Below, in pieces: positions 23,486-28,752 of a stretch of DNA of 42,554 nucleotides; position 1 is the stretch's first letter, and every line of letters begins with the position of its first letter. The stretch spans positions 1-42,554 of IMG/VR virus record IMGVR_UViG_3300043449_000581; one strand, given 5' to 3'. The stretch is from a virus. Made by a program: the position numbers and the translations under genes. The notes beneath the pieces are model-generated. The model was not told where the DNA came from and did no database searches. It saw only the letters and a program-made list of their open reading frames with translations.

Positions 23486-23518
23486 AAAAAGCCCCCCACC
23501 CAGTTACGGGTGAGGGGC
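23484..23518 (-). terminator. Terminator of the leftward operon
   Basis: GCCCCCCACCC (23491-23501) and GGGTGAGGGGC (23508-23518) form a stem with one mismatch around a six-base loop. Read leftward, seven T follow (A-tract at 23484-23490). It stops the operon running from 28287 and separates it from the convergent rightward block. Confidence 0.88.
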
Positions 23519-23520
23519 GG

Positions 23521-23537
23521 TGTACGATTATCGTACA
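23521..23537 (-). promoter_or_regulatory. Operator-like palindrome, site 1
   Basis: TGTACGATTATCGTACA, perfect arms about one central base. It lies between the stop of the last leftward gene (23539) and the terminator, so it cannot be a promoter for a downstream gene; this fits a transcription roadblock or stoperator. Confidence 0.85.
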
Positions 23538-23538
23538 G

Positions 23539-23646
23539 TTAGTCTATTCCATATTTTTCTTCTAAGGTGTCGAACTCATCATCTAGTTCTTCCTCATCAT
23601 CTTCGATATCTAATGCGATATCGTCATCATCTCTTGGCTCACTCAT
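23539..23646 (-). CDS. Very acidic mini-protein (35 aa)
   Basis: Read from 23646 it encodes MSEPRDDDDIALDIEDDEEE then LDDEFDTLEEKYGID; more than half the residues are Asp or Glu. It is coupled to the upstream gene by TAATG and is the last gene of the leftward operon. Such acidic peptides can mimic DNA and bind DNA-binding host proteins (for example anti-restriction proteins), but this one is shorter than known DNA mimics and the role is speculative. Confidence 0.6.
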   Translation of the reverse strand: MSEPRDDDDIALDIEDDEEELDDEFDTLEEKYGID

Positions 23647-23843
23647 TACTCAACCTCTACCCACCGCATAGCGGTCTGTAGTAAGTCGTCATAATCGCCT
23701 GACATAGCCTCCTGATAGAAGGCATCTACTTCTTCTTTGAGCACGCCATTACGCATGAGTGCTCGACCTACATTAGACATGATAGTCATTGCGTTGCCAT
23801 CGTTGCCTGTTAGTTGAACTTTAATCGGGTATTTTGGTTGCAT
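23646..23843 (-). CDS. Small conserved-type phage protein (65 aa)
   Basis: The product MQPKYPIKVQLTGNDGNAMT then IMSNVGRALMRNGVLKEEVD, AFYQEAMSGDYDDLLQTAMR has the pattern I recognise from short actinophage and other phage proteins with a VQLTGxDGN start and a SGDYDxLL end. Function unknown. It starts eight bases after the stop of the upstream gene and overlaps the next by TAATG. Confidence 0.72.
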   Translation of the reverse strand: MQPKYPIKVQLTGNDGNAMTIMSNVGRALMRNGVLKEEVDAFYQEAMSGDYDDLLQTAMRWVEVE

Positions 23844-23851
23844 TTTTTTCC

Positions 23852-24040
23852 TTAGTGTAGTGTTGGTGGGTAGAGTGGTTTTACTGTTGCGTTAATCAGT
23901 CTGATACCGAACTTAATTGCAGCGTCAATGGTATCAAATGCGCCATAGATAATGATTTCGCCATTATCTAGTTTGCATGTAATCACATAGCCGTGAGGCA
24001 ACTGTTCACTGTTAAACTCATGTTCCTCAATGAGTACCAT
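23852..24040 (-). CDS. Small hypothetical protein (62 aa)
   Basis: The product MVLIEEHEFNSEQLPHGYVI then TCKLDNGEIIIYGAFDTIDA has a beta-hairpin-rich middle and ends AAIKFGIRLINATVKPLYPP. AAAGGAAG precedes the ATG, and operator site 2 lies 13 bases upstream of the start, so it may have its own controlled start. No family recognised. Confidence 0.68.
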   Translation of the reverse strand: MVLIEEHEFNSEQLPHGYVITCKLDNGEIIIYGAFDTIDAAIKFGIRLINATVKPLYPPTLH

Positions 24041-24053
24041 GTTACTTCCTTTC

Positions 24054-24070
24054 TGTACGATTATCGTACA
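24054..24070 (-). promoter_or_regulatory. Operator-like palindrome, site 2
   Basis: TGTACGATTATCGTACA, directly upstream of the ribosome binding site of the gene at 23852-24040 and adjoining the stop of 24071-24193. Its leftward strand contains GATAAT, a possible -10 box ending 19 bases before the start codon. Confidence 0.87.
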
Positions 24071-24193
24071 CTAGAGTGCAATCCATAAGATTACACCAAC
24101 TATGGTTAGCGTTGCAAGGGATGTCCAAAGCATAAGCATTAACTGCTCACCTACACTTTCGACAAAGTATTCGTACTCATCTTCTTTATTCAT
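24071..24193 (-). CDS. Single-span membrane mini-protein (40 aa)
   Basis: Read from 24193 it encodes MNKEDEYEYFVESVGEQLML then MLWTSLATLTIVGVILWIAL: an acidic N-terminus and one C-terminal membrane segment of about 20 residues. It overlaps the WhiB stop by eight bases. It may be a membrane regulator, for example of lysis or superinfection; this is inferred only from topology. Confidence 0.6.
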   Translation of the reverse strand: MNKEDEYEYFVESVGEQLMLMLWTSLATLTIVGVILWIAL

Positions 24194-24530
24194 TTTTCTC
24201 CCAGTTATGTGGCACTCTATACACAGCAGACTCATAGGTAGATAGCCAATCTATTGGCGTGATATCTAGAGCAACCTGCATAGCGTGTCTTTCGAGTCTA
24301 TCTAGACCTGCCCAAATCCCAGTAAGATTTGAGTAGCGCAAAGAATAATCCTTGCACTCTTGCTTAGCAGGGCAGTCATGACAGATTGAGCGAGCAAGCG
24401 TAGCCTCAGGAGTATTACTCCATTTTCGACCACGACCTGATAACTCTTGCGGATGCCACCACTCAGGGTCATATCCCTTATCGAAACATGACGCCTGATT
24501 AGTGAACATTGGTAAGTGGTTATCAATCAT
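24186..24530 (-). CDS. WhiB-family iron-sulfur transcription regulator
   Basis: The 114-residue product has the four cluster-binding cysteines C15, C50, C53 and C59 (SICHDCPAKQEC), the turn GIWAGLD at 71-77 and a short C-terminal tail. WhiB proteins bind a 4Fe-4S cluster and work with the principal sigma factor; phage WhiB can down-regulate host WhiB and cause superinfection effects (shown for mycobacteriophage TM4). The start follows GAGGAG, and operator site 3 lies 19 bases upstream of the ATG. It is the strongest evidence for an actinobacterial host. The last about 35 residues, with TPIDWLSTYESAVYR, are unlike the usual basic tail. Confidence 0.92.
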   Translation of the reverse strand: MIDNHLPMFTNQASCFDKGYDPEWWHPQELSGRGRKWSNTPEATLARSICHDCPAKQECKDYSLRYSNLTGIWAGLDRLERHAMQVALDITPIDWLSTYESAVYRVPHNWEKNE

Positions 24531-24681
24531 ATGTCTCCTCTGTTAGAAGTGTACGATTATCGTACACCCCTAACTTAGAGAAAGCACACGACTGACAGTA
24601 ATTGCGCTCTGCTAGGTCATATGTAGGCACGGATATATCCATTCTACATGTCCAGCATTTCGCATTCGTGTATTGGGTCAT
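24523..24681 (-). CDS. Zinc-ribbon mini-protein (52 aa), with operator inside the gene
   Basis: Read from 24681 it encodes MTQYTNAKCWTCRMDISVPT then YDLAERNYCQSCAFSKLGVY with two CxxC pairs, a treble-clef-like zinc ribbon. It shares TAATG with the previous gene and overlaps the WhiB start by eight bases. Codons for GVYDNRT are operator site 3, so the end of the protein and the control site are written in the same bases. Confidence 0.65.
   Translation of the reverse strand: MTQYTNAKCWTCRMDISVPTYDLAERNYCQSCAFSKLGVYDNRTLLTEETYD
24550..24566 (-). promoter_or_regulatory. Operator-like palindrome, site 3 (before WhiB)
   Basis: TGTACGATTATCGTACA, 19 bases upstream of the WhiB start and inside the coding region of the 52-residue zinc-ribbon gene. 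Confidence 0.87.
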
Positions 24682-24869
24682 TACTGACCTTTCTCTAGCG
24701 GTAATTGTTCCGCTAGTGTCTGATACTCAACGGCTTTGAGCATCATCTGTGCGTGTTTGCTTGTATCTCCCTGCAATAATGCTTGTTGAGCATCATGCAG
24801 GAATAATTCGGCTCTCATGCCGTAGTAATACGGGGTAGGTGGTACTACTTTGCGTGGTTGGTTACTCAC
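24681..24869 (-). CDS. Small hypothetical helical protein
   Basis: The GTG at 24869 forms GTGA with the stop of the amidotransferase gene; an ATG at 24905 would force a 40-base overlap. The product has about 62 residues, VSNQPRKVVPPTPYYYGMRA then ELFLHDAQQALLQGDTSKHA, helical after the Pro-rich start and ending LAEQLPLEKGQ. Function unknown; coupling to the amidotransferase may mean a shared complex. Confidence 0.62.
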   Translation of the reverse strand: MSNQPRKVVPPTPYYYGMRAELFLHDAQQALLQGDTSKHAQMMLKAVEYQTLAEQLPLEKGQ

Positions 24870-25702
24870 CAGCCCCACCCCCCTTGAAAGTCTGACTTGT
24901 TCCACCAGTTGTTGGATGTGTTAGCACCCTTGCCTTGATAGCACATGCAATCGTTCATGTATGTCATACACATGAAACAGCATCCGCATTGAGGGCAGTA
25001 ATCTTCTGCCTTCTCGGGCTTTTCGGGTACTGTGTAATCGCATACCTCACAGTAAGCCCATATATCCTCATCATCTTTGACAGTTAAGCCAAAGTCTAGA
25101 GGTTTGACAGATGTCCACATTCTGCTATATGAATCAAGGTAGCATGAGTCGTTAGACCACCATACACCTGATGCATCTCTCTTTCCCTTTTCCTCATGGA
25201 TAAGGTAGCACTGATACTTAGCGCGTGGGTCTACTGTTAGCACACACACCTTAGAACCCGAAGTGAAGTCTTCGATTAGGTTATACACTTGAGTATTATC
25301 TAATGCAGATACACCACCGATAGCAGGCAGTAAGTCTTCTGCAAAGATACGCGTATCACTACGGGTATCACCTTGCGGTTCAATGATAGGCAGGATGCCA
25401 TTGTGTGCTAGGTAGGTACGCTCATCATGACCTACCTTGAATGGGTGACAGTTATCTACTGTCGTTGTGCCATGTGTAGCAAGACGGGCGTGCCATGTGG
25501 CATAACCCTCAGGATACTTGGCGCGCATCTCTAGGAAGCGATTGATAGATGTGTCAGCGTTCATAGTGCGCTCACTATGGATACGATTCTCACTTGGTAT
25601 AACGATTGCGAAACCAAATCCGTGTGGATTGTTGAGCGCACTTGCTTCTAACTTATCTCTTGACGGAATTACATTGGGCGGGATTACACATAACATACAC
25701 AT
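24866..25702 (-). CDS. Class II glutamine amidotransferase
   Basis: The 278-residue product starts MCMLC, so Cys2 becomes the N-terminal nucleophile after Met removal. Ntn-hydrolase motifs follow: NPHGFGFA (25-32), HARLATHG (71-78), NCHPF (84-88) and LAHNG (98-102). It would release ammonia from glutamine. The C-terminus (about 217-255) adds a Cys-rich block (AYCEVCDY; YCPQCGCCFMCMTYMNDCMC) absent from standard enzymes and likely to bind zinc. The amidoligase gene immediately upstream suggests a two-enzyme pathway, a pairing described for phage amidoligase clusters. Confidence 0.85.
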   Translation of the reverse strand: MCMLCVIPPNVIPSRDKLEASALNNPHGFGFAIVIPSENRIHSERTMNADTSINRFLEMRAKYPEGYATWHARLATHGTTTVDNCHPFKVGHDERTYLAHNGILPIIEPQGDTRSDTRIFAEDLLPAIGGVSALDNTQVYNLIEDFTSGSKVCVLTVDPRAKYQCYLIHEEKGKRDASGVWWSNDSCYLDSYSRMWTSVKPLDFGLTVKDDEDIWAYCEVCDYTVPEKPEKAEDYCPQCGCCFMCMTYMNDCMCYQGKGANTSNNWWNKSDFQGGWGW

Positions 25703-25717
25703 TAGATATCTCTTTTC

Positions 25718-25734
25718 TGTACGATTATCGTACG
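25718..25734 (-). promoter_or_regulatory. Operator-like palindrome, site 4
   Basis: TGTACGATTATCGTACG (last base differs), filling most of the 33-base gap between the amidoligase stop and the amidotransferase start, 15 bases upstream of that start. Confidence 0.85.
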
Positions 25735-25735
25735 A

Positions 25736-27199
25736 TTAGTCTTCTGAGTTTGGTACATCATTGGCGAACGATTCGCTCATGATTGTGGCTAGGTTTGGAT
25801 AAGTCTCAAGATTGCTTGAGATGTATCCTGTGAACGCCAGCCATGTCAGGGCTTGGTTCTTTGGTGTTACCTTGAGGTCGCGTGTGTACTCAACTGCTGC
25901 ACTTACGAACTCAAGAGCAGACAGCACTCTCTCCTTGCGTAGTGAACCCTTGAAGACACGCACCTCTATGGTTGCATCATTCTCGGTGTTGATAGCAGAG
26001 TACCTTCCGTTATTCTGCTCACCAAACTTGACCTTGCGTACTAAGTGACCCTTATCGTTAAACGCTGCATAGTTATTGTTACTACGGCCAGCGATACGCT
26101 CAACCTGTCGCTGATTATCATAAACCAACTTCATGAAGCGTAACTCATGCGATTGTCGAGCCAAGATAATTGCATCTCGCTCTTTGATGCCTCCTGCCCA
26201 TGGATTCTTGCCAGTACCAAAAGCGGTACGGGATACATGGACATGCAACCCGCATGATGTGGTGTTCCATGAGCGATAGCCTTGAGACTTGAGTTTGGTC
26301 AGCACTTCCCACTTAAACTCTTTCTGATACTTCTCAAGAGTGTGAGGATGTGTGACTATCTCGAAGCCGTCAGATAGTGAGCCATCATCTTTCATGTATG
26401 CAGTAGCACCTAAAGTATTCTGTGCTATCTCAGCACCTTCATACCTAGAGCCGTTGCGTGCCTCTACTTCTAACTCGAAGCCGAGGTGATACTGCCCTGT
26501 GCCAATGAAGTAAGGTCGTGGGCGGTAGGAGTAACTGTGAATGACCGACTCATCTTCTTCGTCAGCACTACAATCATCATGACTTCCGTCCCAGTATTCG
26601 TCTCCACAGTCGTCACATGTGTAGACATTGTTGTCAATACATGTTTGGCAGTAGCGATTTCCGTCGAATCGTTGGGTGTACGATAATCGTACGGTGTCTT
26701 CGCAGTTTTCACACCAATGGAAGTTACCTTCACCACCGTTGTCTTCGTAGAAACTTTCTGTACAGGTTGTGCATCTAGTTTCTCCTTCAATCTGAATGAA
26801 CTCAGTAAAGTCTCCAGTTTTGTAAGCATCTCCATTCCTTTCATATGTCTGACGCCATGGGCGGTTGATAAGGTGTGCATAGTTAAGGTCACAATCTGAG
26901 CAACCTTCGTTAGAGCAACGGTTATGAGCAATAATGACTCTGCCGTCTGCTAGGTGAGCAGTAGTCAATGACCAGCGTTCATGACCTTCAACCTCAGGCC
27001 GTAAACATGCTTCGCATCTCTCGCCTGTGGCTAAGATAGGGAACTCCTCTACCTTTGGCCATGATTCATTGTTGTACCAATGAGTCCAGCAGTGAACGCA
27101 TATACCGCGCATATCCTGTGACTCAGTAGAACTGACAAAGAGGTGGTCAGGTGCTGAACAACGCGCACAGACGCCTAACTCTAAGTATCCGTAAGCCAT
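25736..27199 (-). CDS. Amidoligase-family (ATP-dependent COOH-NH2 ligase) protein with zinc ribbons
   Basis: The 487-residue product has an N-terminal half with many CxxC pairs (for example CARCSAP, CVHC, CEACL, CTTC, CENC, CQTC, CDDC), an array of zinc ribbons. From about residue 236 come LGFELEVEARNG, DDGSLSDGFEIVTHPHTL and TTSCGLHVHVSRTAFG, the core of the putative amidoligase family (glutamine-synthetase-like fold, PF12224 type). Such enzymes join a carboxylate to an amine with ATP; a partner amidotransferase can supply ammonia. The target is unknown: host wall peptide, a virion protein or a small molecule. Operator site 5 lies inside the gene. Confidence 0.82.
   Translation of the reverse strand: MAYGYLELGVCARCSAPDHLFVSSTESQDMRGICVHCWTHWYNNESWPKVEEFPILATGERCEACLRPEVEGHERWSLTTAHLADGRVIIAHNRCSNEGCSDCDLNYAHLINRPWRQTYERNGDAYKTGDFTEFIQIEGETRCTTCTESFYEDNGGEGNFHWCENCEDTVRLSYTQRFDGNRYCQTCIDNNVYTCDDCGDEYWDGSHDDCSADEEDESVIHSYSYRPRPYFIGTGQYHLGFELEVEARNGSRYEGAEIAQNTLGATAYMKDDGSLSDGFEIVTHPHTLEKYQKEFKWEVLTKLKSQGYRSWNTTSCGLHVHVSRTAFGTGKNPWAGGIKERDAIILARQSHELRFMKLVYDNQRQVERIAGRSNNNYAAFNDKGHLVRKVKFGEQNNGRYSAINTENDATIEVRVFKGSLRKERVLSALEFVSAAVEYTRDLKVTPKNQALTWLAFTGYISSNLETYPNLATIMSESFANDVPNSED
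26677..26693 (+). promoter_or_regulatory. Operator-like palindrome, site 5 (inside amidoligase gene, reversed)
   Basis: TGTACGATAATCGTACG; the central base is inverted relative to the other seven sites. It is written in amidoligase codons for TVRLSYT. Being internal, it may be a roadblock or a chance sequence kept by selection. Confidence 0.78.
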
Positions 27200-27201
27200 G
27201 A

Positions 27202-27354
27202 TTACTTGCCCGCCTTGATGTCGAAGTATGCCTTGCGGTATTCCTCAACGGCACGGGTTAGGCGTGCGTTATGTAGTGCTGATGTGATGACGAGTGTTAC
27301 TGATACGCCTAGTGCTATCACGATAGCGATTAGGTCGGTTACTTGTAGGTACAT
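27202..27354 (-). CDS. Single-span membrane mini-protein (50 aa)
   Basis: Read from 27354 it encodes MYLQVTDLIAIVIALGVSVT then LVITSALHNARLTRAVEEYR, with one membrane segment at about residues 7-27 and a cytoplasmic basic helix ending KAYFDIKAGK. AAAGGAAG precedes the ATG and operator site 6 lies 22 bases upstream. It could anchor the neighbouring amidoligase at the membrane; this is inferred from adjacency (two bases apart). Confidence 0.65.
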   Translation of the reverse strand: MYLQVTDLIAIVIALGVSVTLVITSALHNARLTRAVEEYRKAYFDIKAGK

Positions 27355-27376
27355 CTAACTTCCTTTCGGGTATCGC

Positions 27377-27393
27377 TGTACGATTATCGTACG
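27377..27393 (-). promoter_or_regulatory. Operator-like palindrome, site 6
   Basis: TGTACGATTATCGTACG, 22 bases upstream of the membrane mini-protein that opens the amidoligase-to-WhiB section of the operon. Confidence 0.86.
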
Positions 27394-27395
27394 GC

Positions 27396-27606
27396 TTGGT
27401 GTGGGCAGAATGTCCACTATCTAAGAATACTGGGTATGGCTGGCTAAGTCAAGCGACTACGGCTAGGGCTATCCACGCAAAACGACTACGGCTAACCCCC
27501 ACCCCCGACACAAACCTTTTACGCCACGACTACGGCTATGCCCCATGCCCCAACACAAACTCGTCCGACACAAACTGTCGGACACAAACTTTTCGCGCGG
27601 AGCGCG
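27396..27606. repeat. Gene-free repeat cluster (CGACTACGGCTA and ACACAAAC units)
   Basis: No credible gene is seen between 27355 and 27672. CGACTACGGCTA occurs at 27454, 27483 and 27527; GACACAAAC or AACACAAAC at 27507, 27552, 27567 and 27581. A perfect hairpin GTCCGACA/TGTCGGAC spans 27563-27583 and CGCGC/GCGCG spans 27594-27606. CCCAACACAAACT reappears at 28466-28478. The rightward open frame here is low-complexity and Pro-Thr-Arg rich, and is rejected. Iterons of an origin, protein-binding sites or a structured leader are possible. Confidence 0.65.
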
Positions 27607-27623
27607 TGTACGATTATCGGACA
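27607..27623 (-). promoter_or_regulatory. Operator-like palindrome, site 7 (one arm mutated)
   Basis: TGTACGATTATCGGACA differs from the consensus by one T-to-G change without compensation in the other arm. It lies just beyond the hairpin that follows the 204-residue gene. Confidence 0.75.
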
Positions 27624-27628
27624 TGGCG

Positions 27629-27660
27629 AAGCCCCCACCCCCGAAAGAGGGTGAGGGCTT
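27629..27660 (-). terminator. Hairpin after the 204-residue gene
   Basis: AAGCCCCCACCC (27629-27640) and GGGTGAGGGCTT (27649-27660) pair with one mismatch. The arms closely resemble those of the terminator at 23491-23518, but no T-run follows in either direction, so termination may be partial. Confidence 0.6.
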
Positions 27661-27672
27661 GAGCCTTGAGAA

Positions 27673-28287
27673 TTAAGCGGCTACGCGTTGAGCCTTCACG
27701 CTTGGATGATTAGAATTGTGAGCCTTGACCAGCGCGCCCACGAACTTCACAAACTCGCCCCATTGAGCCTCGTTCTGAATTGAAAGGTCTTCCAACTCTT
27801 TCGCTCCCATGAAGAGAGAAATGTAGGCGTCTAGGTTGGCGAGAGTCTCGCCCGCCTTTGCCTTGCGTCCAGCCTTTGCGCGCTCACCCTGTGAAGGAAT
27901 CGCGCGGACGAATTGAGCGAAGGTCTGAGCCTCGCTAAGTTTAGCGGAAAAATCCTTCTTGTAAGCGCGCTTGGCCTGAATTGTGGTGTTTAAAATGACC
28001 TTGAGAGTCTGAGCCTTTGCGCCTTCCAATTTACGGACATCGGCAGAGTCCACGAAATACTGAACCTGAGACCCGCGAAGCGTTGGAGCCGTGCCGACTT
28101 CCTCAGCCTTCTCGATTGTGGCCTTGAGACCACGAACGGAAATTGTGCCCGCGTTGAGCATTGAAACCGCCTTCTCGTACCAGTTCAATTCGCCCTGAAG
28201 GTTCAGGATAGAAGCGAAGTCTGAAACGAGTGACTCGTTGATTGCGTCCTTGCTTGAGATTACTTTGCCTGACTTTGGTGCTGACAT
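27673..28287 (-). CDS. Unknown 204-residue protein, first gene of the leftward operon
   Basis: The ATG at 28287 is preceded by AAAGG; a longer frame reaches 28368 but covers a good promoter. The product is basic, helical and Ala-Lys rich (GTISVRGLKATIEKAEEVGT, APTLRGSQVQYFVDSADVRK, TLKVILNTTIQAKRAYKKDF). Its codons look more GC-rich than those of its neighbours. The segment around residues 55-85 could be a helix-turn-helix-like DNA contact, which, with its lead position under operator site 8, makes it a candidate regulator; this is inference. No family is recognised. Confidence 0.7.
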   Translation of the reverse strand: MSAPKSGKVISSKDAINESLVSDFASILNLQGELNWYEKAVSMLNAGTISVRGLKATIEKAEEVGTAPTLRGSQVQYFVDSADVRKLEGAKAQTLKVILNTTIQAKRAYKKDFSAKLSEAQTFAQFVRAIPSQGERAKAGRKAKAGETLANLDAYISLFMGAKELEDLSIQNEAQWGEFVKFVGALVKAHNSNHPSVKAQRVAA

Positions 28288-28333
28288 TTTAGAGCCTTTC
28301 GATTTAGAGTGATTAGGATTAACCACTAAGAGA

Positions 28334-28362
28334 ATCATCCCAGAAATGCCCCCTAGAGTCAA
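28334..28362 (-). promoter_or_regulatory. Leftward promoter candidate for the operon
   Basis: On the minus strand TTGACT (28362-28357) and GATGAT (28339-28334) are separated by 17 bases, matching -35 and -10 boxes in 5/6 and 4/6 positions. Transcription would begin near 28327, about 40 bases before the 28287 start codon. Operator site 8 lies 18 bases upstream of the -35 box. Confidence 0.55.
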
Positions 28363-28380
28363 ATCCAAATGCCTAGTGTC

Positions 28381-28397
28381 TGTACGATTATCGTACG
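28381..28397 (-). promoter_or_regulatory. Operator-like palindrome, site 8
   Basis: TGTACGATTATCGTACG, upstream of the first leftward gene and its promoter candidate; the outermost member of the array. Just beyond it are direct repeats of CGCTCAGCCA (28396-28416). Confidence 0.86.
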
Positions 28398-28752
28398 CTC
28401 AGCCACGCTCAGCCACACGCTCAAACGGTCAGGCAGATAGTCACCCAACACGCTCACCAAAGCATCCCAACACAAACTAAAAAACGCGCTCGCTCGTTCC
28501 TCGCTCGCGGTCTGCCGACACTTACTTAAATCGCGGAAGCGATTGTTAAAACTTATCCTGTCGTAAACGACAAAGGACAAAGACAAAGACTCTATCGTGC
28601 GCTAAAGCGCACTCTTATTGGCTTGAAAAGCCTCGTGTCGCCCTGGGCGACCCCAGTGTTACTTATCCCCTCCGGGGATGTATATACACTATCGGCCAAA
28701 AATATTTTTACAGTATTTGGCCTCCAGTGTCCCAATATGTCCGTATTAGTAC

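Follow-up and report, generated by a model that had tools for sequence, protein, structure and literature searches.

What recognizes eight nearly identical palindromes that are spread along a single viral operon, and what are they for? The question is raised by IMG/VR record IMGVR_UViG_3300043449_000581, an actinophage record of 42,554 bp that was analysed whole and is referred to here as the window. A first-pass annotation of the sequence had reported eight copies of a 17-bp palindrome in a leftward operon, and all eight are present (O1 to O8 in Table 1), each with no more than one mismatch to TGTACGATWATCGTACA; there are no further copies in the record. These palindromes are real and highly non-random, with 16 two-strand matches against 0.07 expected in shuffled sequence when up to three mismatches are allowed, a number attained in none of 100 shuffles. 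Comparison with related phages strongly supports the view that the array forms one system with the 204-aa protein encoded at 27673-28287, which we call fam26, and that this protein would recognize the sites at the level of DNA.

The conserved core of the palindrome is GTACGANNNTCGTAC, and the outermost base pair is variable (Y..R, with C..A and T..G common), so that the reported 17-bp palindrome stands as to its sites but not as to its ends. The remaining description of the sites is borne out. GATAAT is read on the leftward, transcribed strand in seven of the eight sites, 26677 being inverted; four sites (O3, O5, O6 and O7) are followed at 13-22 nt by a start codon; two, at 26677 and 24550, lie in coding sequence, within the amidoligase gene and the open reading frame (ORF) 24523-24681 respectively; and the 23521 site is 3' of the last stop codon and 5' of a strong intrinsic terminator (23518-23491).

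When the exact word was scanned against 2.9 million viral contigs it was found in 49 stretches, most of them with several sites over a few kilobases, and homologues of the window proteins were absent from only three. Relatives were also collected through the amidoligase, the class II glutamine amidotransferase-like protein (GATase) and the terminase, and most of these have an array of this or another palindrome. In all, more than 50 non-redundant phages carry arrays of 5-11 palindromes (median 8) on the same leftward operon. Each phage uses a single half-site word, both arms varying together, and at least 12 words are in use: besides the GTACGA of the window there are GTACGG, GGTCGG, GTTAGG, GTCTGA, GCAGGA, GTTCGG, GTTGGA, GTAGGA and GTGGGG, the even-length forms GTTTGGA and an even GTACGA, and, in truncated contigs only, GGTAGGA and GCTCGG. 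Sites are 15-18 bp long and palindromic in all classes, and in near-complete records a word is restricted to phages of its own class and to this operon. The first-pass annotation had made its proposal depend on the sites being sparse elsewhere and conserved between related phages; on the phage side they are absent from the rest of the genomes, and they are kept in relatives, though with changed words.

The fam26 gene is the first of the block in array phages, and we are highly confident from three comparisons that its product binds the sites: it is absent where the array is absent, its identity tracks the half-site, and one of its residues separates the half-sites by base. In a de-duplicated set of 56 loci, each extending from TerL to GATase, gene and array are both present in 40 and both missing from 13. 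The three apparent exceptions are L116 and L117, which have an even-length palindrome of which just two perfect copies score, and L099, whose contig starts within the operon. No fam26 gene was found in any arrayless relative when whole records were searched, including the near-complete 41.6-kb record behind locus L106. With backbone identity controlled, fam26 identity tracks half-site class with a partial r of 0.65 for the N-domain and 0.61 for the whole protein (0 of 500 permutations), against control values of 0.11 for WhiB, 0.06 for the sigma-like protein, 0.07 for TerL, -0.14 for the amidoligase and -0.22 for GATase; all other shared families fall within -0.22 to 0.21. On this control WhiB, the sigma-like protein and every other shared family with enough data were rejected as the binder.

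An alignment of 57 non-redundant fam26 members from 12 classes places the best column for half-site class at residue 76 (mutual information 1.84 of 1.88 bits). It is the sole column that splits base A3 of the half-site from the others without overlap, with Gln in 32 of 32 members of the A3 classes and in 0 of 25 of the rest; members with Glu there have C3, and T3 is found with Ser, Gly, Ala, Asn or Pro. Contacts of Gln with A and of Glu with C are classical. On supported branches of the GATase tree, residue 76 and the word switch jointly in six of six phylogenetically independent pairs (p 0.03). The AlphaFold2 model of the N-domain is all-helical, with a predicted local distance difference test score (pLDDT) of 94 and a predicted template modelling score (pTM) of 0.86; in it a helix-turn-helix-like unit could be made up of helices 51-64 and 72-85, the second of which contains residue 76. 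The C-terminal part, a helical domain of its own, might serve for oligomerisation. It is most likely that fam26 is a dimeric binding protein. A family search found no credible match to it in Pfam, PHROGs, NCBIfam or PDB sequences, and the earlier statement that no known repressor is present is right in that this protein belongs to no known family.

Words are uncoupled from phage phylogeny, with at least 17 word changes and at least five changes of array presence on the GATase tree, a quick tree with many weak branches. Four loci, L087, L091, L093 and L097, illustrate this: their GATases are 91-96% identical and their TerL proteins, where available, 96-98%, and the site between amidoligase and GATase is at a syntenic spot with conserved flanks, yet it reads GCAGGA, GTTGGA, GTACGA or GTTTGG. 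Their fam26 proteins are only 18-32% identical for most pairs (77% for L087 and L091). Judging from these comparisons, protein and sites very probably constitute a lock-and-key gene switch whose key has been repeatedly re-invented.

How would such a switch work? We regard it as probable that the phage encodes both a repressor and the operators for it, arrayed along the operon that it silences by a stoperator-like stop. A dimer of the 204-aa protein would sit on each palindrome, with one recognition helix (72-85) for each GNNNGR half-site, and would silence the site-bearing operon, the fam26 gene included. This gene may be a transcription unit of its own, because it is followed by a stable hairpin (T1; -32.2 kcal/mol over 27610-27675, z -4.8, missed by a scan for T-run terminators) and because a second promoter, P2, is placed between O2 and O3. 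Among 51 loci examined for this geometry, 29 have a P2 match, such matches occurring in 18% of random windows, and in 23 of these 29 O3 starts 29-41 bp past the P2 -10. RNA polymerase would thus be halted just past P2, with O3 at about +25, and then at further sites up to the terminator, in the fashion of L5 stoperators; as O3 is fully downstream of the transcription start, a protein bound there would block escape or early elongation instead of promoter binding.

The arrangement of the array has the look expected of one that blocks elongation, with sites in gaps before starts, varied sites within genes, a site ahead of the terminator, and even spacing. The GATase start is preceded by a site ending 15-18 nt before it in 45 of 49 loci, sites within the long amidoligase gene are at codons that differ from phage to phage, and all of 45 arrays have a spacing (median 557 bp) more even than expected at random (coefficient of variation of the gaps 0.48 vs 0.84). 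That fam26 represses seems to us quite likely; that it acts by roadblock is only slightly favoured.

Several observations weigh against this interpretation. The consensus promoter matches in the window are no more frequent than in shuffles, and the claims for P1 and P2 therefore rest on conserved comparative geometry. The orientation bias of the sites is partial, unlike that of L5 stoperators; in the palindromic sites of the GTACGA class the centre is TAA in 101 cases and TTA in 55. The residue code is incomplete, since Lys at position 76 accompanies G3 in one class and T3 in another. The protein has no recognizable DNA-binding family, and fold searches gave no match, either for the whole model against PDB and BFVD or for the N-domain model against PDB; we consider a new fold possible but claim no more, because such a search can miss small helical domains. 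Being metagenome contigs, the relatives are of uncertain completeness. Finally, the position of O1 near -62 upstream of P1 in most phages fits an activator better than a roadblock, and the protein may be an activator of P1 or may loop the DNA.

This last point leads to the strongest, albeit unlikely, alternative, in which the same protein mainly activates or organizes the operon, acting in class I-like manner at about -62 and bridging or looping the sites so that a silenced or packaged domain forms, with no roadblock involved. It draws on the position of O1, which lies 15-28 bp upstream of the -35 of the TTGACT-N17 match of P1 in many relatives, on the even spacing, and on the C-terminal domain if this does oligomerise. 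However, in phages of the GTTCGG and GTACGG classes P1 precedes the first site, O2-O3 spacings are not phased with the helical turn (Rayleigh R 0.06, n=51), and an activator would need no sites in genes or ahead of a terminator.

Far less probable is that the array is bound by a host protein, the phage WhiB or a sigma-like protein, with fam26 as a linked passenger. Host regulators in general bind 17-bp palindromes, and WhiB is encoded in the operon with O6 preceding its gene; the first-pass annotation had named host extract, WhiB and the 27673-28287 protein as binding candidates. The comparative evidence picks out the last of these, whereas WhiB and sigma-like genes are retained in arrayless phages and do not track the word, near-identical phages carry different words, and it is residue 76 of fam26 that shifts with the word.

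We give still less credence to the palindromes being RNA hairpins beside the Shine-Dalgarno sequence that control translation, RNA processing or stability; the hairpin itself had been pointed out at first pass. Each site can be folded as a 6-7-bp hairpin, and the constant distance to the GATase start would suit such a role, but O1 is untranscribed in most relatives if P1 is right, O8 is past the last stop codon, and on the sense strand the non-pairing outer pair C..A outnumbers the G.U-capable T..G by 111 to 41. Moreover, the use of one word for all arms in a phage is more than pairing alone demands, and the arms track a protein residue. A centromere, replication iteron or packaging element is just as hard to credit: many identical sites next to the gene of a putative binding protein recall ParB-parS, but no ParA partner was found in 12 near-complete records, sites some 560 bp apart are not at helical-turn spacing, and the array extends over exactly one transcription unit, with a constant distance between O3 and a promoter. 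The earlier suggestion of combined promoter-operators, based on GATAAT, is not supported, since the centres vary by class (ATT, TTT, GAA, CAA etc.) and separate TTGACT-N17 promoters are conserved.

With the cluster A phages (L5 gp71, Bxb1 gp69, TipsytheTRex) and Streptomyces phage R4 the system shares the use of one phage protein together with numerous sites, nearly identical to each other, that occupy short gaps between genes in transcribed regions, although here they are confined to one operon. Cluster A sites and repressors also diversify together into specificity groups (PMC6550527), and the repressor binds as a monomer to an asymmetric 13-bp site (PMC9283540). In contrast to the genome-wide, transcription-oriented sites of cluster A and R4, which are temperate phages, those described here are palindromes in phages with no integrase or ParA found, and their words are unlinked to genome relatedness. 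A fam26 profile has no match in R4 or in the gp69-bearing part of Bxb1. The analogy to stoperators drawn at first pass thus holds for the way of working, one protein with many sites along a transcription unit, but not for membership of the L5 or R4 systems.

Palindromic sites in many intergenic spots are likewise common to this system and that of the phiC31 repressor (c). Run as a positive control on phiC31 (L242), our blind palindrome and array finder recovered 15 genome-wide copies of CCTACTCACGTGAGTAGG, which we take to be the conserved inverted repeats (CIRs) of that repressor. The phiC31 sites are genome-wide, structural genes included, and an integrase is present, whereas here one operon is involved; the fam26 profile has no match on phiC31, whose repressor is a 2-kb gene. 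The start-associated sequences (SAS) and extended SAS (ESAS) of cluster K are repeats just upstream of start codons, as here, and the ESAS inverted-repeat consensus varies between subclusters (PMC3203893). SAS, however, is an asymmetric 13-bp sequence containing the Shine-Dalgarno, and our palindromes are 5' of the Shine-Dalgarno and occur also upstream of a promoter, within genes and past the last stop. Lambda-type operators are pseudo-symmetric, 17 bp with a central base, as expected for a helix-turn-helix dimer, but here there is no match to a lambda-type repressor family, many sites lie along the transcript and promoters are not overlapped. As the protein is unrelated in sequence, the sites are in one operon and no integrase is found, the putative repressor-operator array belongs to neither the cluster A/R4 nor the phiC31 systems.

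The leftward block is flanked by rightward early and replication genes and by a rightward terminase; it contains fam26, a small membrane-like ORF, amidoligase, GATase-like, Cys-rich and WhiB-like genes and small ORFs, followed by the intrinsic terminator (Table 1). The amidoligase, class II amidotransferase and Cys-rich ORF (24523-27199 in the window) make up a conserved operon core in the relatives, with no known product. Short direct repeats of the GCTGAGCGTG type precede O1 at 28398-28440 and at equivalent spots in many phages of several classes, and repeats of CGACTACGGCTA and GACACAAACT occupy the O2-O3 interval around P2 (27440-27600). The arrayless loci L106 (16090-16725) and L104 (9415-10059) have a C5-methyltransferase-like ORF (DLFSGTNSAT and DFFSGTGSAT) of a family present in 3 of 77 loci.

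Table 1. Coordinates of sites, genes and inferred signals in the window
Feature	Position	Strand	Remarks
Site O1	28381..28397	-	Upstream of P1; centred near -62 relative to the putative transcription start
Promoter P1 (putative)	28334..28362	-	TTGACT-17-GATGAT; drives fam26 gene; position relative to O1 conserved across relatives
fam26 gene (probable array-binding protein)	27673..28287	-	204 aa; predicted recognition helix 72-85, specificity residue Q76
Candidate terminator T1	27628..27660	-	Stable hairpin after fam26 gene; no long T run
Site O2	27607..27623	-	One arm mismatch, GTCCGA
Promoter P2 (putative)	27424..27452	-	TTGACT-17-TATTCT; serves downstream operon
Site O3	27377..27393	-	Some +25 to +40 from P2, where a roadblock would act; ATG 27354 follows at 22 nt
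Small membrane-like ORF	27202..27354	-	First gene past P2
Amidoligase_2-domain protein	25736..27199	-	
Site O4	26677..26693	.	Within amidoligase gene; centre inverted
Site O5	25718..25734	-	Gap between amidoligase stop and GATase start (ATG 25702)
GATase	24866..25702	-	Class II glutamine amidotransferase-like
Site O6	24550..24566	-	Within ORF 24523-24681; 19 nt before whiB (ATG 24530)
WhiB-family regulator	24186..24530	-	
Site O7	24054..24070	-	13 nt before ATG 24040
Site O8	23521..23537	-	Past last stop codon, ahead of T2
Intrinsic terminator T2	23491..23518	-	Terminator of the operon

No match to tyrosine or serine integrases or to ParA (PF00589, PF07508, PF13614) was found in the window, where the first-pass annotation had also noted no integrase, or in the near-complete relatives searched, and a TerL or GATase relative was confirmed in none of 84,980 bacterial and archaeal genomes. 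Because of these two results, lysogenic immunity is no obvious purpose of the array. Its likely use in this non-integrating phage family would be autoregulation, by which an early or accessory operon is sharply shut off, and perhaps also exclusion: phages that enter the same cell and share the word would be silenced in trans, and new words would thereby be favoured. Among 50,697 records of isolated phages fam26 is absent. Of cultured phages, Planktophila phages E7 and F5 (L244 and L245, OX376640 and OX376641) have the closest TerL (58% identical), which suggests a Nanopelagicales-type host; both are lytic (PMC10202952), and neither has the array, fam26 or GATase. An amidoligase/amidotransferase pair similar to that of the window occurs in cluster S mycobacteriophages and in a Manatee Spring podovirus; such palindromes were not found in the latter or in mycobacteriophage Marvin, which also has both genes. 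The corresponding part of Marvin (L138, 46656-65100) contains up to six copies of a non-palindromic repeat, approximately CCCCCCGTGCCGATCAGTTTTTT.

In summary, it is possible, and we suggest it tentatively, that a fold-novel phage DNA-binding family and its operon-wide arrays constitute a non-lysogenic recognition system of virulent or carrier-state phages of abundant freshwater actinobacteria, in which matching words would silence mutually and diversifying selection would repeatedly replace the protein and its eight or so sites together. The array system is found in freshwater actinobacterial phages without a detected integrase, and lysogenic immunity is no obvious explanation of it there. 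With 12 or more words, 17 or more changes of word and a readable code at residue 76, the switching of specificity by a protein together with many dispersed sites becomes testable, as does the possible role of operator diversity in mediating exclusion when phages of a dominant group of freshwater bacteria co-infect a cell.

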